A DNA stretch of 64,000 nt from Candidatus Anaerostipes avistercoris (GTDB taxonomy: Bacteria; Bacillota; Clostridia; Lachnospirales; Lachnospiraceae), in assembly GCA_019119895.1 (NCBI GenBank), contig DWWD01000048.1, positions 124,001-188,000 of the forward strand, in the 5' to 3' direction. Both the position numbers and the translations under genes were made by a program. The notes beneath the pieces were generated by a model. The model ran no database searches. It worked only from the letters and a program-made list of their open reading frames with translations, and was not told where the DNA came from. Below, piece by piece: positions 22,182-33,420 of this stretch (positions are counted from its first letter, which is position 1; each line of letters opens with the position of its first letter).

Positions 22182-22799
22182 TTAACATATTCTTCTCGGG
22201 TCTTCTTTTCCTTCGATTTCCGCAATACAGCTTTCCAGGGAATAACGGATCATGTCTCCCGCCGCCTCATCCGTGAAAAATGCGGTATGGGGCGTCATCA
22301 GTACATTGGGCATAGCGTTTAAAACTGCCATATCATGATTCCCGGTTCCTACGACTCCGACCGTCATATTTCTTAATTCTTTTCCTCTGACGTCCGTCAG
22401 AGAATAATCCTGTACCTGGTACCGGGTGAGAATGGTTTTCATCCGCCGTATGGCCATTAATATGGTCATAACCGTGTATTCTGCCACAGTATGGGGCGTG
22501 TAGCTTACATTTGATATGGGAATATTCAGTTTTTTCGCGGTTTCCAGATCAATATGGTCGTATCCCACGGTCCTGGTGGAAATTGCCCGGATTCCTGCTT
22601 CTTTCCAGGCACGCAGAAGTTCTCCGTCAATGGGCGTCGTAATGACGCTGACTGCCTGACAGCCCTGTACAAAGGAATAATTTTCCACCGTCGGAGCCTC
22701 TGTTGTAATCTTTAATTCAATCTGATACTTCTTTTTGTAAAATTCAAAAAGGCCGCGTTCATCCGGCCTGCAATTAAATACTGCGATTTTCATTGTCAT
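22182..22799 (-). pseudogene. D-lactate dehydrogenase-like gene with in-frame internal deletion
   Basis: A D-2-hydroxyacid dehydrogenase resembling the VanH/LdhA group, but only 205 residues instead of about 330. The substrate-domain half is intact (VSVITTPIDGELLR, STRTVGYDHIDL, ISNVSYTPHTVAEYTV) up to VGVVGTG. There the reading jumps directly to NHDMAVLNAMPNVLMTPHTAF. The missing 120 or so residues contain the rest of the NAD-binding fold and the catalytic Arg. The catalytic His region TPHTAF remains. The frame is preserved, so a protein could be made, but it should not bind NAD. The start at 22799 follows AAAGG. Confidence 0.78.
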
Positions 22800-24361: not shown

Positions 24362-25768
24362 TTATGGATAAACCGGAACAAACAGAACCTGATTGCTTCC
24401 GCCGCAGATCATGCCCAGATTGGCGCTTTCTTCATTGGATAATGAGAAATCCATCACGGTGATTTCTCTGATCTCCGGCGCCGTCCGGATCACTTCATGT
24501 TCCATAGCTCCACCGCCTATACTTCCGATAACCTTATCTTCGCACACCAGCATCATGCTGCCAACCCCTCTTGGAGATGATCCGTTTTTCTTTGTGATAA
24601 TACATAAGACACCATTTTCTTTTGCCTCCAGAAGCTCCTTTGTCATTGTACTGACGGTTCCCTGATTCTTGATCTGGATCAGTTCCGCGGCAATACTGAC
24701 GGCAATTTCTTCCGGTGTCCTTGCTCCGATGGGCAGTCCGATCGGGGCGTGGATCCCTTCCACCGTTTCCTTGGAAAATCCCTGTGCCTCCAGAGATTCA
24801 AAAGTCGCTTTTACCTTTTTTCTGCTTCCGATCATGCCCAGATACGCATAAGATCTGGCAAGCACTTTCTTTACGCAGACTTCATCGCCTGTATGTCCTC
24901 TTGTAACGACCACGTAATAATGCTGATCCCCCTCCGGAAGATATGCTTCTGCTTTCTGAAAATCACAGCAGTGCACTTCATCGGCTTCCGGCAGCCTTTC
25001 AGGATTGGCAAATTCTTCCCGGTCATCCAGAATGATGGTGTAAAAATCCAGAAATTTTGCCAGTTTCAAAAGCTGCAGCGCCACATGGCCCGCTCCGAAA
25101 ATCATCAGTTTCGGCTGGGAAGAAAACCAATCTTCCTGAATCACGGACACATCCTTTTCTTCTCTGAAAAAACGGGCGATGGTCTTTTCATATAATGTAT
25201 TGACCTGTCCCGGACATACCGTTACTTTTACATTCGGAAATTTTTCCCGCAGCGGCCTCACATACCCTTCTGTCACCAGTTTCTGAAGGTGTTCCGGTTT
25301 CAGTATGTTATCTTCGCTGATTCTCAGACAGTCAAGCACCAATTCCTTTCGATGAGCCGTTTCCCGGCAGGTCTTTCCCAGAGCGGACAGTCCTGTCACC
25401 ACCTGAATTTCATCTGTTATATCCGGAATGACCGGCTCGTAATCTGCCGGATATTTTACAGGCAGACCTTTGGATCCATCGGCTTCTATCAAGGTAATGT
25501 CTGCGGATTCCGAAGCCTGTTTCAGAACCTCTTCCTTCAACGGTCCCATCTTTTCTGTCCCCGGCATGCTGGTCCCTGCCATGCAGTATCCTTTCGCTTT
25601 CAGCTGCGCTATGATATCTTCTGCAGAAGGATCCAGTAGTGTATCCTCTTCTGCCAGCATATGCGTTGTTGTGGCAGCAAGGACCGTTTTCCCCTGTGCC
25701 ATATATTGGTCTCGTAGTGTATGAATCCTGGTCGTTTTTCCGCCGGATCCGACAACTGCAATTACCAT
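24362..25768 (-). CDS. YqeC-XdhC fusion, molybdenum hydroxylase maturation protein
   Basis: A 468-residue protein joining modules that are usually separate genes. Residues 1 to about 225 match YqeC, with a P-loop-like GSGGKTT and LIEADGSKGLPVKYPADYEPV. This family always accompanies selenium-dependent molybdenum hydroxylases. Residues about 230-365 are the XdhC Rossmann domain (LMIFGAGHVALQL, VVTRGHTGDE, LGMIGSRKK). Residues about 375-468 are the XdhC/CoxI domain (CIITKKNGSSPRGVGSMMLV, IGGGAMEHEVI), here placed after rather than before the Rossmann part. XdhC binds molybdopterin and promotes insertion of the terminal sulfur. It is the last gene of the operon. Confidence 0.85.
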   Translation of the reverse strand: MVIAVVGSGGKTTRIHTLRDQYMAQGKTVLAATTTHMLAEEDTLLDPSAEDIIAQLKAKGYCMAGTSMPGTEKMGPLKEEVLKQASESADITLIEADGSKGLPVKYPADYEPVIPDITDEIQVVTGLSALGKTCRETAHRKELVLDCLRISEDNILKPEHLQKLVTEGYVRPLREKFPNVKVTVCPGQVNTLYEKTIARFFREEKDVSVIQEDWFSSQPKLMIFGAGHVALQLLKLAKFLDFYTIILDDREEFANPERLPEADEVHCCDFQKAEAYLPEGDQHYYVVVTRGHTGDEVCVKKVLARSYAYLGMIGSRKKVKATFESLEAQGFSKETVEGIHAPIGLPIGARTPEEIAVSIAAELIQIKNQGTVSTMTKELLEAKENGVLCIITKKNGSSPRGVGSMMLVCEDKVIGSIGGGAMEHEVIRTAPEIREITVMDFSLSNEESANLGMICGGSNQVLFVPVYP

Positions 25769-25782
25769 AAATGAAATTCCTC

Positions 25783-27729
25783 CTAATCTTCCGCGGTCTG
25801 TTTCAGAGCATCTGCCGCAAATCGAATCTGCTGTTCAGACACATCGTATCCGAAACTGAATCTTACCATTCCCTGTTCTCTGGTCTGATAATGCTCATGG
25901 ACCAGCGGCGCGCAGTGGGCGCCGGACCGGGTCTGGACGCCGAAACGTTCTGCCAGTTCATCACTGACTGCGGAAGAATCATAACCCTCCAGATTGCAGG
26001 ACAAAACAGCCGTACGTTTCGTAAAATCTGAATGTTCATCTATACCGTAAATTTTGATTCCCGGAATATCCCGGATCAGCTGATAAAACAGCCGGATATG
26101 GTTCTGCTCATGTTTCCGGATCCGATCCAGCCCGGCGGACATCAGCCAGCGGATACCGGCTTCCAGCCCGGCAATGCCTGGACCGTTCAGGGTTCCCGCT
26201 TCCAGAGCCTCCGGCATACGGTCCGGATGTGTTTTGGAAAAAGAATCAAATCCGCTGCCGCCGGTAAGAAGCGAACGGATGTGGATTCCTTCCCGCAGAC
26301 ACAGTCCGCCGACTCCCTGAGGTCCCAGAAGTCCTTTATGCCCTGCGAAACATAAAATATCAATCCTGTCTTCTTCCATGGAAATCGGAAAAACTCCTGC
26401 TGTCTGAGCGCTGTCAACGATAAAAAGAATTCCCCGCTCCCGGCATATCTGCCCAACTCTGCGGATATCGAATACTTCTCCTGTTACGTTGGATCCGTGC
26501 GTCATCACAACTGCCTTGGTATTATTACGGATTTCTCCGGCAACTGCCTCCGGATCCGGCGCTGTAATGGAAAGAGAGACTCCTTTTTGTTCCAATTCAT
26601 ACAGCGGCCGCAGGACGCTGTTATGTTCCATATAAGTAGTGATAACATGATCTCCCGGATTCAGTGTTCCTTTCAGCGCCATATTTAGGCTTGCAGTGAT
26701 CCCGCTGGTAAAAGACACCTGTTCCGGACAGCTGCATCCGAAAAAGTCACAGACTGTCTGCCGGGCCCGGTAAATATTTCTTGCCGCACCAAGAGAAGCC
26801 CTGTGCACGCCTCTTCCTGCATTCCCGCAGGACAGAGACCTGCATACGGCTTCTTTCACCTGTGGCGGCTTTGACGGATTTGTCGCTGCATAATCCGCAT
26901 ATAAGCCATCTCTGGCCGTTTCACCCTCTGCCTGAAGCATTAAAATTGCCTCCAGCACGCCGCCTCCAATGCAGCGCGCTTTGTCAGAAATCGTAAAACA
27001 GTTATCATATTCCTCAATTCTCGGGTCGATATCCGCAATTTTAAATCCCTTGGTCACCGGATAACGGTCACGGATCAGTCCCCGCAGAAGTCCGTCGATT
27101 GTAGCAGGAATCTCTAAGATTCCATGGTCTGTCTCGAGATATGCAATGGTCTGCCCCTTTTTTACGGTATCCGTAATATGGCAGACATTATGAAGGATTC
27201 CCGCTTCCGGAGAATGGAGAACCCTGTCTTTTCCAACACCTGCGATGATACCGGGAATCCCGGTATTGGCGATAGCCGCTCCTTCCCGGATCACTCTTCC
27301 CAGCTGATGTCCCCTTTTCGTCTCGATTACTGCGTCAACATCTTCTCCCGCTGTAAATCCGGGACCGAGAGCAATGGTAATCGGCGCCATATCACGGCGG
27401 GTTCCGAGATTTTTTTTCGCTAAAATGGCGTCTACCAGCGCCAGAGGCTTCCAGCATTCCAGGCATTTCCCTTCCGGGTCGATCATAAGCGCAGGTTCCC
27501 CACGACTCATGATCTGTTCTGCTTCCTCACAGGATCCCGCCATCCGGCAGGTCATATCTTCTACTTTGGCCGTTCCATCATAAACTGCCTCGGAAAACGC
27601 CACATTCCTCCGGATGGCAGACGGAGCTGCGGTTTCCAGCACAAGAACGCGGAAACCACTTTTTACCAATTTATAAATAGTGCCGGTGGCAATATCTCCT
27701 CCGCCCCGCACGATGACTAGTTCTTTCAT
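25783..27729 (-). CDS. YqeB-cysteine desulfurase fusion
   Basis: A 648-residue, two-part protein. Residues 1 to about 265 match YqeB/EF2563 of the selenium-dependent molybdenum hydroxylase system (VRGGGDIATGTIYKL, ITIALGPGFTAGEDVD, GRVIREGAAIANTGIPG). From about residue 275 a class V aminotransferase begins (YADYAATNPSKPPQV), with the PLP lysine in CFAGHKGLLGPQG and the active-site Cys in TRSGAHCAPLVHEH. Cysteine desulfurases mobilise sulfur or selenium from (seleno)cysteine. The fusion would place the donor beside the insertion factor. The ATG at 27729 has AAGGAG upstream. A class V enzyme is known near such loci in enterococci as a separate gene. Confidence 0.87.
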   Translation of the reverse strand: MKELVIVRGGGDIATGTIYKLVKSGFRVLVLETAAPSAIRRNVAFSEAVYDGTAKVEDMTCRMAGSCEEAEQIMSRGEPALMIDPEGKCLECWKPLALVDAILAKKNLGTRRDMAPITIALGPGFTAGEDVDAVIETKRGHQLGRVIREGAAIANTGIPGIIAGVGKDRVLHSPEAGILHNVCHITDTVKKGQTIAYLETDHGILEIPATIDGLLRGLIRDRYPVTKGFKIADIDPRIEEYDNCFTISDKARCIGGGVLEAILMLQAEGETARDGLYADYAATNPSKPPQVKEAVCRSLSCGNAGRGVHRASLGAARNIYRARQTVCDFFGCSCPEQVSFTSGITASLNMALKGTLNPGDHVITTYMEHNSVLRPLYELEQKGVSLSITAPDPEAVAGEIRNNTKAVVMTHGSNVTGEVFDIRRVGQICRERGILFIVDSAQTAGVFPISMEEDRIDILCFAGHKGLLGPQGVGGLCLREGIHIRSLLTGGSGFDSFSKTHPDRMPEALEAGTLNGPGIAGLEAGIRWLMSAGLDRIRKHEQNHIRLFYQLIRDIPGIKIYGIDEHSDFTKRTAVLSCNLEGYDSSAVSDELAERFGVQTRSGAHCAPLVHEHYQTREQGMVRFSFGYDVSEQQIRFAADALKQTAED

Positions 27730-27746
27730 TGAATACTCCTTCAGAT

Positions 27747-28121
27747 TCATAGATTTTCCTCTATTGTATCATGATTTCCGAAATGTTTCACGAAAGATTG
27801 TCTGGCAGCTTCTGTTACCTCCTCCTGGAACTTTTCATACCGCTCCAGGAAATCTTCGCCTTCCGGCGTCAGACGGGAATATCCACCCGATTTTCCTCCG
27901 GACACACTTTCCATCAGGGGAAATCCAAGATCTGCTTCCGCCCGGCGTACAATTTTCCACGCTTTGCTGGCAGCCATTCCCATTTCCTTATAAGCAGCAG
28001 ACAGGGATCCTTTCTGAGCCACCAGGCGCATCAGCTGTGCGATGCCTTTTCCAAATGCTGGGTCTTCACAGAAAACCCGCAGCCGGATATCAAATTTTGC
28101 AGGAATCTGTTGCTTTTTCAT
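27747..28121 (-). CDS. ModE-like DNA-binding protein without molybdate-binding domain
   Basis: A 124-residue protein consisting only of the ModE-type winged helix-turn-helix (GIAQLMRLVAQKGSLSAAY, AASKAWKIVRRAEADLG, GGKSGGYSRLTPEGEDFL). E. coli ModE has a further 140 residues with two Mop domains that bind molybdate; they are missing. The protein probably represses or tunes the operon. A dyad with ModE-box geometry lies at 32317-32340, upstream of the MOSC-MogA gene of the same operon. How it would sense molybdate is unclear. The start at 28121 follows AAAGGGAT and is one base after the preceding stop. Confidence 0.8.
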   Translation of the reverse strand: MKKQQIPAKFDIRLRVFCEDPAFGKGIAQLMRLVAQKGSLSAAYKEMGMAASKAWKIVRRAEADLGFPLMESVSGGKSGGYSRLTPEGEDFLERYEKFQEEVTEAARQSFVKHFGNHDTIEENL

Positions 28122-28122
28122 C

Positions 28123-29151
28123 CTACCATCCCTTTCCAAATCCGCAGTTCGGATAGGTGCAGATTTCACATCCCAGACAGAATCCTCCTTCTCCCAGGGA
28201 TGCGAGTTCTTCTGCAGTGACCAGGTCATCTGCCATGATCCGCGGCAGAACCAGATCGAAAATAGTCCTTCTGGAATACATGACGCATCCAGGAAGTCCC
28301 ATAACCGGAATCCGCTGATCGCCGTAATAAGCCAGAAGGAACATGGCTCCCGGCAGCACCGGCGCCCCATAGGAAACAATGTCCGCGCCAGTGTTCTTTA
28401 TAGCCAGCGGCGTCTGGTCATCCGGATCCACACTCATTCCTCCTGTGCAGATGACCATCTGAGCGCCGTGATCCAGGGCTTTTAAAACAGCCTGCGTCAC
28501 CTGGTCATGATCATCCGGCAGTATGGTATGTTCAGTAATTTCCGTACCATATTCCGCCAGTTTATCATTGATTACCGGAGTGAACGTATCTTTGATCCTG
28601 CCGTGATATACTTCATTTCCCGTAGTAATTACCGCAGCCTTCTTCGGATGATAAGGAAGAAGAGAAAAAATCGGACCTTCATCGGCAATGTCTTCCACCG
28701 GCGTCATTTTTTCTTTTTCGATCACCAGAGGTATGATACGTGTTCCTGCCAGCTTGTCTCCTTTTTTCACCGGCGTATTTCCATGTCTGGAAGCAATCAT
28801 CATCTGTCCCAGGGAATTGATTTTACAAAGTCTCTGTTTATCGACTTTAAAGAGACCGTTGTATTCAGCGGACAGCTCAATCTTTCCCTCTTTTACTTCA
28901 GATTGTGCCATACCGTCGTTTTTGCAGGCCCTGCAGAGAATCTCTGCCGCATCATTTTCATGGAGCATATCGTCTCCTGCTTCCCATACATAAAGATGAT
29001 CTTTTCCGAGAGATAACAGGACAGGAATATCCTCTTCTGTCACTACATGTCCTTTCCGGAATCTGGCGTCTTTGGTCACACCCCGGATAATCTGTGTAAT
29101 ATCGTGGCACAAAACTGCGCCTGCTGCGTTTTTTGTTTCTATCAGTTTCAT
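28123..29151 (-). CDS. MoeA-like molybdopterin-binding protein
   Basis: A 342-residue protein with a MoaB/MogA-type molybdopterin-binding fold in its second half: AVITTGNEVYHGRIKDTF, ICTGGMSVDPDDQTPLAI and the GLPGCVM loop. The N-terminal half resembles a MoeA-like hinge domain. A short Cys-rich tail (GGFCLGCEICTYPNCGFG) is typical of the version found with molybdenum hydroxylase maturation genes and may carry metal or the cofactor. It probably handles molybdate insertion or cofactor editing. It sits in the same-strand run between modA and the ModE-like gene. Confidence 0.83.
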   Translation of the reverse strand: MKLIETKNAAGAVLCHDITQIIRGVTKDARFRKGHVVTEEDIPVLLSLGKDHLYVWEAGDDMLHENDAAEILCRACKNDGMAQSEVKEGKIELSAEYNGLFKVDKQRLCKINSLGQMMIASRHGNTPVKKGDKLAGTRIIPLVIEKEKMTPVEDIADEGPIFSLLPYHPKKAAVITTGNEVYHGRIKDTFTPVINDKLAEYGTEITEHTILPDDHDQVTQAVLKALDHGAQMVICTGGMSVDPDDQTPLAIKNTGADIVSYGAPVLPGAMFLLAYYGDQRIPVMGLPGCVMYSRRTIFDLVLPRIMADDLVTAEELASLGEGGFCLGCEICTYPNCGFGKGW

Positions 29152-29165
29152 ATTCTCATGTCCTT

Positions 29166-29981
29166 TTACTCGTTGACTGTGAATCCGTAAGATTTAAATA
29201 CATCCAGCGCCTCGTCTGTCTGAAGGAATTTTACGAATTCATCTGCCATCTCTTTGTTTTTGCTGTTCTTTAAAGATGCTACAGGGTAAATGACAGGCGT
29301 TTTCAAAACATCCTGCGAAGCTTCTGCCACTACTTTGACGTCATCTGTGCCTGCGGCATCTGTCGCATATACAACGCCGCACTCAGCGCTTCCTTTTGCC
29401 ACCCAGTTTAAAACTTCCGTTACATTGGTTCCAAAACTTGCTTTGCTGTTGACATCATCCCACATATCAAGACTGGAAAATGCTTCCTGGGCATACTGAC
29501 CGGCTGGAACGCTTTCCGGGTCTCCCACCGCAATGGTTTCTGCCTTTGTCGCTGTTTCGAATGAAGTGATGTCCTTATTGGCATTTTCCGCCGGAACGAT
29601 AAGAACCAGTTTGTTCTCCAGCAGATCTACTACATCATCCTCGGAAATGTAATCTCCATCTACCAGATTATCCATCTGTTCGGCTGCCGCAGACATAAAT
29701 ACATCGGCGTCCATACCCTGTTCAATCTGAGTCTGGAGTTTTCCGGAACTGTCATAAGTACCTTCGATCTTTACATTGGAATGTTCCTTCTCAAACATAG
29801 GAATCAGCTTCTCTGTATAACATTTCTCCAGACTGGCTGCCGCCGCAATGGATAATGTTACGGATTTCTCACTGGAAGTATCCTCCGAGGAAGCTCCCCC
29901 GCTCTGACATCCCACAGCTCCCAGTGCCATAACCGCAGCCAGGATTCCGGCTGTCATCACATTTCTCAGCTTTCTCATCAT
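29166..29981 (-). CDS. modA: Molybdate-binding lipoprotein ModA
   Basis: The solute-binding part of the molybdate importer, 271 residues. A lipoprotein signal peptide ends at the lipobox LGAVGC near residue 24. It is followed by a Ser-rich linker and a periplasmic-binding fold with LSIAAAASLEKCY, DVFMSAAAEQMDNLV and VGDPESVPAGQYAQEAF, the last being characteristic of ModA. As expected in a Gram-positive, it should be anchored to the outer face of the membrane. The ATG at 29981 shares a base with the modC stop and follows AGGAAGG. A second ATG directly follows. Confidence 0.92.
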   Translation of the reverse strand: MMRKLRNVMTAGILAAVMALGAVGCQSGGASSEDTSSEKSVTLSIAAAASLEKCYTEKLIPMFEKEHSNVKIEGTYDSSGKLQTQIEQGMDADVFMSAAAEQMDNLVDGDYISEDDVVDLLENKLVLIVPAENANKDITSFETATKAETIAVGDPESVPAGQYAQEAFSSLDMWDDVNSKASFGTNVTEVLNWVAKGSAECGVVYATDAAGTDDVKVVAEASQDVLKTPVIYPVASLKNSKNKEMADEFVKFLQTDEALDVFKSYGFTVNE

Positions 29982-30661
29982 TATAACCTTCCTTTCTTGT
30001 ACGGGAAATCTGCATATGGCTGAATGCATCCCTCCCTGATTGTATATTGTTTCCGGCAAAGCCGCCTCACTTCCTCTGCATCATGGCTTACAAGGATGGA
30101 CGGCTTCTGAAAATCTGCAAACATTCCGGATAATTCCTGCTGCAGTTCTTCTCTTAATTCTTCATCCAGCGCAGACAACGGCTCATCCAGGAGAATAACT
30201 TCCGGCTCATAGGCCATCAGTCTCGCGATGGCTGTCCTCTGTTTTTGTCCGCCGGACAGCTGTCTCGGATATCTTTTTGCCAGTTCCCGGATCTGAAACC
30301 GCTCCAGCATTTCTTCAGTCCGCTCTTTTATCTGCCTTTTTGGCATTTTTTTTGCCTTCAGGCCGCACTGTATATTTTCTTCTACCGTCATATTTGGAAA
30401 CAGGGCATATCCCTGAAACAGATAGCCGATTTTCCTTTTCTGAGGCGGCAGGTTGATTTTCTCTGCAGAATCAAACAAAGGCTTCCCGTCCAAAAGAATC
30501 CGTCCCTCATCCGGTGTTTCAATCCCTGCAATGCATTTCAGCGTCATGCTTTTTCCGCTTCCGGAAGGTCCCATCAGCCCGGTGCATCCGTTGTCAATGG
30601 CAAACTCCGCCTCCAGAACAAATTCTTTTAACTTTTTTCGTATTCCAATCTCTAATTTCAT
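29981..30661 (-). CDS. modC: Molybdate ABC transporter ATPase ModC (short form)
   Basis: The ATPase of the molybdate importer, 226 residues. Walker A is GPSGSGKSMTLK, the Q-loop lies in YLFQGYALF, the signature is LSGGQKQRTAIARLM, Walker B is PEVILLDEPLSALD and the switch is LVSHDAEEVRR. E. coli ModC carries an extra C-terminal Mop domain of about 120 residues. This one stops after the ATPase fold, so molybdate feedback on transport is probably absent. It lies 11 bases after modB and overlaps modA by one base. Confidence 0.88.
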   Translation of the reverse strand: MKLEIGIRKKLKEFVLEAEFAIDNGCTGLMGPSGSGKSMTLKCIAGIETPDEGRILLDGKPLFDSAEKINLPPQKRKIGYLFQGYALFPNMTVEENIQCGLKAKKMPKRQIKERTEEMLERFQIRELAKRYPRQLSGGQKQRTAIARLMAYEPEVILLDEPLSALDEELREELQQELSGMFADFQKPSILVSHDAEEVRRLCRKQYTIREGCIQPYADFPYKKGRL

Positions 30662-30672
30662 CCTTTATTCCC

Positions 30673-31350
30673 TTATATTTCATTCTGTTTCTTCTTCTCC
30701 CATAACAGATAAACATTCATTCCGATGACCATGACAAAACAGATGACAACAATGACCATAACATACTGGTAGGCTTCATCCATATTCCCCGCGGCTACCT
30801 CAGAATACACCGCCAGAGGAAGGGTTCTGGTCTTCCCCGGAATGTTTCCGGCGATCATGGCTGTGGCGCCGAATTCTCCCAGACCCCTGGCGAAAGCCAG
30901 TACACCGCCGGAAATAATACCCGGCAGAGCGTTTGGTATCATGATTTTGAAGAAAATGCTCCACTCGCTCATTCCAAGTGTCCTTGCCGCGAAAATCAGA
31001 TCCTGATCGATCTGTTCCAGAGCTCCCCTGGCCGACCGGTACATGAGAGGAAAAGATATCACAACTGCGGCCAGTACCGTTGCTCCCCAGGAGAAAGCAA
31101 TTTTTATTCCGAAAGCGTCCTGAAAAAACCTACCAACCAGGCCATAAGATCCGAAAATATAGAGCAGAAAAAATCCGGCCACTGTAGGAGGAAGAACCAG
31201 CGGCATGGTAAAAATGCCATCCCACAGGATTTTGGATGCTTCCCTCTTTCGGTAAAAAACACCTCTGGCCGCCAGCAGCCCTAGAACAAATGTGATTAGA
31301 ATCGTGACCGCAGCGGTTTTCATTGATATGATAATTGGTGAAGAGTCCAT
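30673..31350 (-). CDS. modB: Molybdate ABC transporter permease ModB
   Basis: A membrane permease of 225 residues with five spans. It has the ABC-coupling sequence EFGATAMIAGNIPGKTRTLPLA, diagnostic for ModB, and LPPTVAGFFLLYIFG in the first half. It starts three bases after the MOSC-MogA stop and is followed closely by modC. Together with ModA it brings molybdate into the cell at the cost of ATP. Confidence 0.92.
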   Translation of the reverse strand: MDSSPIIISMKTAAVTILITFVLGLLAARGVFYRKREASKILWDGIFTMPLVLPPTVAGFFLLYIFGSYGLVGRFFQDAFGIKIAFSWGATVLAAVVISFPLMYRSARGALEQIDQDLIFAARTLGMSEWSIFFKIMIPNALPGIISGGVLAFARGLGEFGATAMIAGNIPGKTRTLPLAVYSEVAAGNMDEAYQYVMVIVVICFVMVIGMNVYLLWEKKKQNEI

Positions 31351-31353
31351 AGG

Positions 31354-32304
31354 CTATTTCTCCTTAAAGGCCGTTCCGCATTCGGATGCCGTGCCTCTTA
31401 AAATCTTGATTCCGTGTTCCAGGCTGTCCATGATAAAAGACAGAGACTCCGCTACTGCCTTCTCGCTTCCCGGCAGATTTATGATCAGTGTCCGCCCGCG
31501 AATGACAGACACACCGCGGGAAAGCATGGCCCGCGGTGTGATCTCCATGGAGCCGGCGCGGATTGCTTCGGCGATACCAGGAGCCTGCCGGTCCGCCACT
31601 GCCAGAGTTGCCTCCGGGGTACAGTCTCTCATGGAAAATCCGGTACCTCCGGTCGTAAGAATCAGGCTGATCTGACGACTGTCGCTTAAACGGATCAGTT
31701 CTTTCTCAATCTTTTTCTGTTCATCCGGCAGCAGAACCTCTTCCACTACTTCATATCCATATTCCCGCAGGATTTTGGCGGCTCTCGGACCGCTGGTATC
31801 CCTGCGCTCTCCTGCAAATCCCTTATCACTTAATGTAATGACTGCGGCCGTCAGCGGATCATCTTCTTCCTGAGGCAGAACCCGGATCTGATCACCCACC
31901 GCGATTTTCCCTCCAGACAGGACTTCCGCGAAGATTCCTTCCCGGGGCATGATGCAGTCTCCCACTCTCTGATAAATCTGGCAGTGATGATGACATTCTT
32001 TTCCAATCTGAGTGATCTTAAGTCTGACTGTGCCGCACTCCAGAATTGTTCCAACAGGAAGTGCCGCCAGATCGATTCCTTCCAGGAGAATATTTTCTCC
32101 GAAATCTCCCGGACCTGCCATGCCGCCCCTCTGATTAAATTCTTCTACCTTGTCCTGACTCAGCAGGCTGACCTGCCGGTGCCAGGTGCCGGCATGCGCG
32201 TCGCCTTCCAGCCCATGCTGCGGGATCAGAACAGCTTCCTGCACATTTTGTTTTATGGTTCCGCGTTCTCTGCTGATGCAGACTGCTTTAATATATCCTT
32301 TCAT
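31354..32304 (-). CDS. MOSC-domain / MogA fusion (molybdopterin adenylyltransferase)
   Basis: A 316-residue protein with two parts. Residues 1 to about 150 form a MOSC domain (GLEGDAHAGTWHRQVSLLS, FGENILLEGIDL, IGKECHHHCQIYQ with the reactive Cys), a sulfur-carrier fold related to the Moco sulfurase C-terminus. Residues about 155-316 are MogA/MoaB (AVITLSDKGFAGERRDTSGP, ILTTGGTGFSMRDCTPEAT, INLPGSEKAV), which adenylates molybdopterin before molybdenum insertion. The ATG at 32304 follows AAAAGGAGG; an upstream ATG at 32328 lies inside the candidate ModE operator. The fusion recurs in anaerobes. Confidence 0.9.
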   Translation of the reverse strand: MKGYIKAVCISRERGTIKQNVQEAVLIPQHGLEGDAHAGTWHRQVSLLSQDKVEEFNQRGGMAGPGDFGENILLEGIDLAALPVGTILECGTVRLKITQIGKECHHHCQIYQRVGDCIMPREGIFAEVLSGGKIAVGDQIRVLPQEEDDPLTAAVITLSDKGFAGERRDTSGPRAAKILREYGYEVVEEVLLPDEQKKIEKELIRLSDSRQISLILTTGGTGFSMRDCTPEATLAVADRQAPGIAEAIRAGSMEITPRAMLSRGVSVIRGRTLIINLPGSEKAVAESLSFIMDSLEHGIKILRGTASECGTAFKEK

Positions 32305-32316
32305 ATTCCTCCTTTT

Positions 32317-32340
32317 CGTTATTCTCATTTGAGAATAACG
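32317..32340. promoter_or_regulatory. Candidate ModE box
   Basis: A perfect dyad: CGTTATTCTCA, two bases, then its exact reverse complement. CGTTAT and ATAACG are 12 bp apart, the same ends and total length (24 bp) that I recall for the E. coli modABCD operator. It lies between promoter and start of the MOSC-MogA gene, about 55-78 bases into the transcript. As RNA it could also form an 11-bp hairpin beside the ribosome site. Confidence 0.65.
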
Positions 32341-32352
32341 ACTTCTTGAAAC

Positions 32353-32373
32353 AAAGCGGTCAGAAACCGCTTT
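32353..32373 (-). other. Leader hairpin upstream of MOSC-MogA
   Basis: AAAGCGGT/ACCGCTTT is an 8-bp stem with a 5-nt loop, inside the predicted leader and before the ModE-like dyad. The following sequence on the minus strand is GTTTC, a poor T-run, so termination would be weak. It could be an attenuator or simply a processing element. Confidence 0.4.
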
Positions 32374-32401
32374 ATTTCGTACTTATTTATTTCCTGGTCA
32401 T

Positions 32402-32430
32402 ATTATATCAATCTTTCAGTATGAATACAA
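32402..32430 (-). promoter_or_regulatory. Promoter of the MOSC-MogA-modBCA operon
   Basis: On the minus strand, an extended -10 TGATATAAT (core 32402-32407) has TTGTAT 17 bp upstream. It lies downstream of moaA, so moaA need not be part of the regulated transcript. Confidence 0.65.
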
Positions 32431-32460
32431 GTTAAACAGAGCCTGTTTCAGCAGAATCTC

Positions 32461-33420
32461 TCATCCTCCAATCCGGTACATTTCTTCACTGGACGGTTTT
32501 TCCAAAAAATGATGAGACGGAGGTTTACAAAAAATTTCTGTCCGGGCCTTCTCAAGCAGCTCGTCCTGGGACAGACCTTCCAGGAGCAGATTTTTCATAT
32601 TAAGCCTCGGCGGTTCATACAGACAGGTTTTTAAGGAACCGTCCGACAGCAGCCGGACGCGGTTGCAGTCCTTGCAGAAATTATGGTGGACTGCCTCGAT
32701 CAGTCCCAGGTATCCCCGGATTCCCGCTGCTTTATAATAGGAAGCTGGTCCATTTCCCAGCGACTGGGAAACCGGTTTCATATGCCACCCTTTCTGCTCC
32801 AGTTCTCTCAAAATCCGGTCGCCTGTGAGTTTCGGCTCCACATACTGACTGGATCCCAGAGGCATTTTTTCAATCATGCGCACGGGAATGCCGGATTTTC
32901 TCATAAACTCAAAAAATGGCCATATATCTTCCATTTCTTCATCCGGCAGGATCACTTTATTGATTTTTACCAGCAGCCCCTCTTCCTTCGCGGCTCTGAT
33001 ACCGTTAAGTACATCATTCAGGCAGTCTTTCCCGGTAATGTTCGCATATGTTTCCGAATCCAGAGAGTCCACACTGACATTAACACCATCAATGCCTGTC
33101 TGTGCCAGCTGCCGGGCAGAATCTCCGAGGAGTGTTCCATTGGTGGTCAGTGTAACCTGGGAAATGCCGGGAAGATTTTTTATCTGTTCCAGAAATTCCA
33201 GAATTCCGGGACGCACCAGCGGCTCGCCTCCGGTAATCTTGTATTTATGGATGCCCAGCCGGATAAAGATACGGCAGAGTCTCAGAATCTCAGCATAGGA
33301 CAAAATCTCCGAACCGGTACAGCTTCCGGACTTCGGCCGGCAGTAATGGCACCAGAGATTGCAGTTTTCTGTGACCGATATTCTCATATAATCAATTTCT
33401 CTTTGAAAACGATCTTTCAT
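32461..33420 (-). CDS. moaA: GTP 3',8-cyclase MoaA
   Basis: A radical SAM enzyme that starts molybdopterin synthesis by rearranging GTP. Its 319 residues carry the SAM cluster motif CNLWCHYC at the N terminus, KITGGEPLVRPG, TTNGTLL and NVSVDSLD. The C-terminal cluster ligands lie in NFCKDCNRVRLLSDGSLKTC, and the C terminus ends with the conserved Gly-Gly (YRIGG) needed to position Arg residues in the active site. moaC and moaE are not here and must be elsewhere. It follows a MATE gene by 33 bases and precedes the molybdenum operon, though a separate promoter intervenes. Confidence 0.94.
   Translation of the reverse strand: MKDRFQREIDYMRISVTENCNLWCHYCRPKSGSCTGSEILSYAEILRLCRIFIRLGIHKYKITGGEPLVRPGILEFLEQIKNLPGISQVTLTTNGTLLGDSARQLAQTGIDGVNVSVDSLDSETYANITGKDCLNDVLNGIRAAKEEGLLVKINKVILPDEEMEDIWPFFEFMRKSGIPVRMIEKMPLGSSQYVEPKLTGDRILRELEQKGWHMKPVSQSLGNGPASYYKAAGIRGYLGLIEAVHHNFCKDCNRVRLLSDGSLKTCLYEPPRLNMKNLLLEGLSQDELLEKARTEIFCKPPSHHFLEKPSSEEMYRIGG

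Follow-up and report, generated by a model that had tools for sequence, protein, structure and literature searches.

The 64,000-nucleotide stretch of Candidatus Anaerostipes avistercoris analysed here, hereafter the window (assembly GCA_019119895.1, contig DWWD01000048.1, positions 124,001-188,000 of the forward strand), contains a putative molybdenum cofactor maturation operon in which YqeB is fused, in one open frame, to an EF2568-type class V desulfurase of the selenocysteine-lyase family. This YqeB-lyase chain is a rare, conserved architecture inside a known system, and no description of it was found in the literature searched, subscription papers being mostly outside reach. We give about an even chance to the reading that it is a one-chain donor passing selenium (or sulfur) from the lyase cysteine to YqeB, for one xanthine-dehydrogenase-like hydroxylase. 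Selenium delivery to the molybdenum of such hydroxylases is poorly understood; the fusion suggests a role for the lyase at the YqeB step, beyond selenide supply alone, and offers one purifiable protein for direct tests of selenium transfer.

The fusion gene (25783-27750, minus strand) encodes 655 amino acids (aa), in which both TIGRFAM models score above their cut-offs. YqeB covers residues 12-272 (26935-27717, minus; TIGR03309, 342.4 bits, cut-off 220), and after 11 intervening residues the desulfurase domain covers residues 284-650 (25801-26901, minus), passing its model marginally (TIGR01977, 378.5 bits, cut-off 377). K472 and C613 of the desulfurase half, which, as for class V desulfurases in general, we take to be the pyridoxal phosphate lysine and the catalytic cysteine, do not vary in any of the 29 desulfurase sequences aligned. 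The domains and residues read from the letters by the first-pass annotation of this DNA are present. The YqeB half holds the segment NCFTISDKARC, with C251 kept in 32 of 33 aligned YqeB sequences and C260 in 29 of 33; the rows of these conservation alignments were drawn from chosen loci. Foldseek assigned the desulfurase half to the SufS/CsdB fold, and a search with the whole fusion gave desulfurase-type entries in all of the 50 rows listed and was uninformative on YqeB. Against the selenocysteine-lyase model SclA (NF040779) the protein scored 322.2 bits and missed the cut-off of 525. No MOSC domain was matched on the 655-aa chain, the MOSC domain of the operon being located on a MogA fusion.

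An AlphaFold model of the fusion, built from a 46-row alignment (four fusions, 25 YqeB sequences and 17 C-terminal desulfurase pieces), was mostly confident within the domains, with a mean predicted local distance difference test score (pLDDT) of 85.9. The predicted template modelling score (pTM) was 0.61, and residues 281-286, 310-316 and 495-520 were modelled weakly. The prediction of a YqeB-desulfurase interface, which had been proposed earlier, accordingly yielded the two domains, while the interface was not fixed at this pTM. The idea that YqeB is a second XdhC Rossmann domain was rejected (hhalign probability 8%). The middle part of YqeB gave weak profile matches to a biotinyl/lipoyl-like barrel (best E value 0.0055, behind an unrelated match at 0.0024), a hint that agrees with a remark on AccB in PMC11448449 (this and all other papers are cited here for the parts available to us).

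The fused frame is open end to end in four of the 11 genomes of the genus: our own, Anaerostipes butyraticus (G397), Candidatus A. excrementavium (G399) and G400, a single-contig genome. The three other proteins are 82, 75 and 66% identical to ours, and both halves pass their cut-offs in all four, TIGR01977 reaching 397.3, 383 and 390.9 bits outside our genome. In each of the four genomes the fused copy is the only match to the query at E ≤ 1e-50, and the frame of G397 (L055, 649 aa) is uninterrupted, one TAA counted there falling outside it. An assembly or sequencing artefact, for which the 49 contigs of our assembly could speak, therefore has a negligible probability, and an assembly join, which the first-pass annotation had named as a way in which the YqeB fusion might dissolve, is ruled out by an open frame found at differing identities in four genomes, one of them a single contig, with both domains above cut-off in each. 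No in-frame ATG, GTG or TTG lies around the junction in G397 and G399; our gene and that of G400 each have three in-frame start codons there, from which some free lyase could be made.

In other Anaerostipes genomes yqeB and the lyase are two genes, which lie far from each other or on different contigs in G398, G401 and G402 and about 6 kb apart in G243. Among the matches listed in samples of 397 genomes of the family and 398 of the phylum, which both include our genome and overlap slightly, no open fusion was found outside our own genome; this survey took the top matches at E ≤ 1e-60 and scored up to three candidates per genome, among which a full fusion should rank first. Several candidates were rejected. 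The 7-653 match of G127, which spans both halves, comes from two genes with a stop between them; the apparent frames of 947 and 975 aa in G058 and G368 are broken by stops between yqeB, yqeC and the lyase; and in three loci of Lachnospiraceae metagenome-assembled genomes (MAGs; L057, L058 and L060) two genes overlap or abut in different frames.

The origin of the fusion was addressed with separate trees of its halves. In a tree of 33 rows the four YqeB halves are united in one clade (support 96/90); in a tree of 60 rows the four lyase halves are likewise united, with weaker support (94/82). The YqeB halves belong to a group of 12 rows (93/95) together with G159, G353, G003, G058, G368 and three MAGs (RGIG1917, SUG1894 and SUG199). 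The lyase halves share a group of nine rows (98/98) with G353 and these MAGs, four genomes in all of which yqeB adjoins the lyase gene. The two trees agree incompletely: the lyase that belongs to the nearest YqeB, that of G159 (86/86), is encoded on a different contig and sits in another part of the lyase tree, and the same holds for G058 and G368. The bootstrap of the YqeB tree was not settled, and several rows are on long branches. Neither tree places the remaining Anaerostipes that carry these genes (G398, G401, G402 and G243) with the fusions. Among 23 unfused loci that hold both genes, chosen rather than random, yqeB directly precedes the lyase in 16. The fusion appears, on the evidence of trees and gene order, to derive from a gene pair that is often adjacent in relatives, and a single joining event in a co-inherited neighbouring pair would be the simplest history.

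Two further frames were observed among the relatives. In the desulfurase frame of G003 (L041:4571-6397, minus) the TIGR01977 match starts at residue 212; about 200 additional residues stand in front of it, and this stretch, between yqeB and the lyase, has a marginal match to an ATP-binding cassette (ABC) ATPase (PF00005, 25.6 bits, cut-off 25); it is either another fusion or an open upstream frame. In G155 (L046:7434-8933, plus), YqeC and YqeB are fused in a 499-aa frame near xdh genes, both above cut-off.

The operon had been described at first as lacking a target enzyme, with hydroxylase and selD absent from the window. This is true of the window; both were found elsewhere in the genome, on contigs C14 and C40, and the other ground for refutation named by the first-pass annotation, their absence from the whole genome, thereby falls away. 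As first assigned, the locus looks like an operon for maturation of a selenium-bearing molybdenum cofactor. The single PF02738 protein of the genome (C14, 246.6 bits) is preceded by flavin adenine dinucleotide and iron-sulfur (FeS) subunits and followed by a MocA-like gene (109.8 bits, under the cut-off of 186) and a xanthine phosphoribosyltransferase gene. Its best models are xanthine dehydrogenase ones, yet it lies under every listed cut-off, including those of the selenium-dependent xanthine dehydrogenase TIGR03311 (285.3 bits, cut-off 830.45) and XdhA_XDHase (634.8 bits, cut-off 780); xanthine as its substrate is a guess from context. The neighbours of selD (397.7 bits, cut-off 125) are a YedF gene (TIGR03527, 224 bits, cut-off 110) on one side and, on the other, a gene for a double-cubane anaerobic reductase. 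No SelB above cut-off, no selenouridine synthase and no PF00384 enzyme was found in a selenium and molybdenum search of our genome that left the sulfite oxidase and AOR families unsearched, so that the cofactor trait is the only one among three known uses of selD to have turned up, in a search that did not extend to SelA and selC. The markers of that trait, YqeB, YqeC, selD and a molybdenum hydroxylase, all occur in this genome.

Across the genus, a hydroxylase occurs in eight and selD above cut-off in seven of the 11 genomes, and in four and three, respectively, of the four fusion genomes. In G400, selD, yedF, the moa and mod genes (moaA included) and both fusions form one same-strand run. 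Six loci (L039, L040, L046, L119, L123 and L124) have a relative of the C14 hydroxylase, at 64-76% identity, no more than about 6 kb from yqeB and yqeC. As a separate observation, the double-cubane-cluster reductase gene (L002:2471-3628, minus; NF040772, 499.3 bits, cut-off 350), which is followed by selD and yedF, is kept in G397 (100% identity) and G399 (96%), and persists in G399 without these two genes.

The donor reading rests on the domains, the frame, the conserved catalytic residues, the grouping of the fusions in both trees, the gene context and the presence of hydroxylase and selD. The operon would import molybdate, help to build molybdopterin and supply dedicated cofactor factors, which would put labile selenium (or sulfur) on the molybdenum of the hydroxylase encoded elsewhere in the genome. 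The lyase half would strip selenium from selenocysteine (or sulfur from cysteine) onto C613 and hand it to YqeB, tethered in the same chain, with the C251/C260 segment as the most likely recipient; this segment ends shortly before the lyase and is a candidate acceptor. YqeB and YqeC-XdhC could then use the selenium on the cofactor before insertion, with YqeB treating cofactor held with YqeC-XdhC. On this reading selenium would be the transferred element rather than sulfur, its hand-over from lyase to YqeB would be direct, and SelD may act before, beside or instead of the lyase-YqeB step. Published work is consistent with parts of this scheme. Deletion of yqeB in C. difficile resembles deletion of selD, and YqeB may bind the cofactor or a selenium intermediate, as its authors suggest (PMC11448449); EF_2568 has been called a probable selenocysteine lyase (PMC2276186); and labile 75Se was found on an unidentified E. 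faecalis protein of about 30 kDa (PMC2432076), which is about the size of YqeB or YqeC.

On the other hand, several observations weigh against the donor reading. The SclA scores of the four fusions (322-344 bits) stay under the cut-off of 525, and the AlphaFold model, with its pTM of 0.61 and low confidence at residues 281-286, gives no domain interface. In our own gene an ATG in frame at residue 271 follows a GGAGG, so that part of the lyase might be made as a free protein. The fusion is rare in the family and phylum samples and is therefore not required for function in general. The closest solved structure to the C14 hydroxylase is a 4-hydroxybenzoyl-CoA reductase, and seven loci (L038, L044, L049, L114, L118, L125 and L128) have a different hydroxylase near yqeB, with FeS and molybdenum parts in one chain and 26-30% identity in the molybdenum part, and our type of hydroxylase is therefore not the sole possible partner. 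Deletion of yqeC alone in C. difficile is without phenotype (PMC11448449), and labile selenium on the hydroxylase of our genome is a prediction. Finally, G399, a MAG rated 97% complete in which the fusion, YqeC-XdhC, a modE-like frame and the hydroxylase are all present, showed no selD above cut-off and no yedF match in a genome search. Its contig continues with other genes where relatives carry selD and yedF, and neither gene occurs at the positions of the G400 type. This is either a MAG gap or evidence for selD-independent or sulfur use; if confirmed, a fusion genome without selD would separate selenophosphate from this step.

One alternative, unlikely in our judgement, is that the lyase half works upstream only and frees selenide for SelD, the fusion being a coupling of operon neighbours with no direct transfer. 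Haft and Self indeed placed EF_2568 before selenophosphate synthesis (PMC2276186), the two genes are often neighbours, so that a fusion could arise by stop loss, and the tether is of low confidence in the structure model. Against this, four genomes retain the fusion with its sequence diverged to 66% identity, two of them offer no start codon at the junction, and G399 retains it with no selD found above cut-off.

It is also unlikely, to a barely greater degree, that this is a sulfur system, in which the desulfurase half gives sulfur from cysteine, YqeB carries or modifies the cofactor to yield an ordinary Mo=S centre, and selD serves something else or is being lost. G399, with fusion, YqeC-XdhC and hydroxylase and neither selD above cut-off nor a yedF found, fits such a system, as do the match of the desulfurase half to SufS/CsdB-type structures together with its score under the SclA cut-off, and the sulfuration of the XdhC-bound cofactor by the desulfurase NifS4 in R. 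capsulatus (PMC2997495). Our own genome speaks for selenium, as its selD lies beside a YedF gene and no other use of selD was found, and so does the resemblance of YqeB loss to selD loss in C. difficile (PMC11448449).

A bolder form of the donor reading, which we regard as rather doubtful, is a bacterial molybdenum cofactor 'selenurase', in which selenium from selenocysteine would pass as perselenide directly to the YqeB carrier, with no free selenide and possibly no selenophosphate, G399 being its natural selD-less example. If true, it would be a convergent counterpart of the plant cofactor sulfurase ABA3 and would explain the origin of the labile selenium.

The second fusion of the operon (24362-25768, minus; 468 aa; TIGR03172, PF19842, PF13478 and PF02625) joins YqeC to XdhC. 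YqeC covers residues 2-169 with a GSGGKTT loop (25262-25765, minus; TIGR03172, 153.1 bits, cut-off 73.05). Both XdhC domains are present behind it in swapped order, as had been read at first, with the Rossmann domain at residues 221-363 (24680-25108, minus; PF13478, 149 bits; Foldseek matches to 2we8, at E 5.4e-12, and 3on5) ahead of the XdhC_CoxI domain at residues 380-432 (24473-24631, minus; PF02625, 55.7 bits). The full-length XdhC models stay under their cut-offs (NF045664, 274.9 against 350 bits; TIGR02964, 144.3 against 161.6), and the structure model is better than that of the YqeB fusion (pLDDT 90.2, pTM 0.82). Twelve of the 14 XdhC proteins in annotated loci are Rossmann-first, those of G102 and G605 having the usual order, and seven of the 14 are YqeC-XdhC fusions (four Anaerostipes, G003, SUG1894 and SUG199); yqeB and the lyase guided the choice of these loci, so the fractions are no survey. 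The swapped order and the YqeC-XdhC fusion recur in other Lachnospiraceae, by their domain matches, and are apparently less unusual than the YqeB fusion. The first-pass annotation had called both fusions unusual: both are real and recurring, the YqeB-desulfurase fusion is rare, and YqeC-XdhC with its swapped order is common in the chosen loci. Haft and Self noted frequent YqeB-XdhC fusion, in print in 2008 (PMC2276186). Zhang et al. report XdhC, a MobA-related protein and aldehyde oxidoreductase fused to YqeB or YqeC in some organisms, the rows of their Table 1 available to us giving fusions of the MobA-related protein with YqeB or YqeC and of XdhC with YqeB. Neither a YqeC-XdhC pairing nor a permuted XdhC was found in the accessible parts of the literature searched.

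The two fusions close a run of nine genes at 24362-33420, all on the minus strand, with moaA first and YqeC-XdhC last, and the coordinates, strand and count agree with the original description. The nine genes probably form a single operon, judging from strand and spacing. Upstream of the fusions lie moaA (32461-33420; TIGR02666, 312.9 bits, above cut-off), a MOSC-MogA fusion (31354-32328; PF03473 and PF00994), the permease gene modB (30673-31350; TIGR02141, 234.2 bits, above cut-off), a modC-like ABC ATPase gene adjoining modA and modB (29981-30661; TIGR02142, 200.3 bits, under the cut-off of 285), modA for the molybdate-binding protein (29166-30059; TIGR01256, 179.3 bits, above cut-off), a moeA-like gene for a molybdopterin-binding protein (28123-29151; PF00994, 94.8 bits) and a modE-like regulator gene (27747-28379; TIGR00637, 54.6 bits, under the cut-off of 98.5), whose mechanical start is too early, homology beginning at about residue 110. 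The union of MOSC and MogA in one protein recurs in several relatives, others having separate proteins. Consensus promoter-like sites (11 in the region, shuffle mean 10.6) and terminator-like sites (11, shuffle mean 9.7) showed no excess, and no Rfam family reached its gathering score within the window. A D-2-hydroxyacid dehydrogenase-like open reading frame at 22182-22799 (minus) looks internally shortened, PF02826 being matched at model positions 2-47 of 178 only.

Compared with known systems, the locus is close in content to the SelD/YqeB/YqeC maturation of selenium-dependent hydroxylases (2008), with which it shares the markers, the EF2568-type lyase family, XdhC, Mod, ModE and MoeA-like partners and selD in the genome; it differs in that lyase and YqeB are one polypeptide here. 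Zhang et al. name EF2568 one sentence before their fusions, in a wording that does not strictly exclude a lyase fusion, and the accessible part of their Table 1 has no lyase column. The SclA model is matched over nearly its full length at 322 bits, and the difference lies in this sub-cut-off score and in the YqeB fusion. The Rossmann domain resembles that of XdhC in PDB entries 2we7/2we8 and 3on5; here it precedes the CoxI domain, with YqeC in front. In R. capsulatus, NifS4 associates with XdhC and sulfurates the cofactor held there (PMC2997495), a desulfurase likewise feeding a cofactor-bound maturation factor; there the proteins are separate and the acceptor is XdhC, whereas here XdhC is fused to YqeC.

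The fusion also resembles the eukaryotic molybdenum cofactor sulfurase ABA3, or MOCOS, in that a class V desulfurase shares one chain with a cofactor-maturation module. In plant ABA3, a NifS-like domain is joined to a cofactor-binding MOSC domain (PMC2997495, PMC8931425). Here the carrier is YqeB instead of MOSC, the order is reversed with the carrier first, and the MOSC domain lies on a separate protein, joined to MogA. On the best reading, the YqeB-lyase fusion would work like ABA3 without being its homologue.

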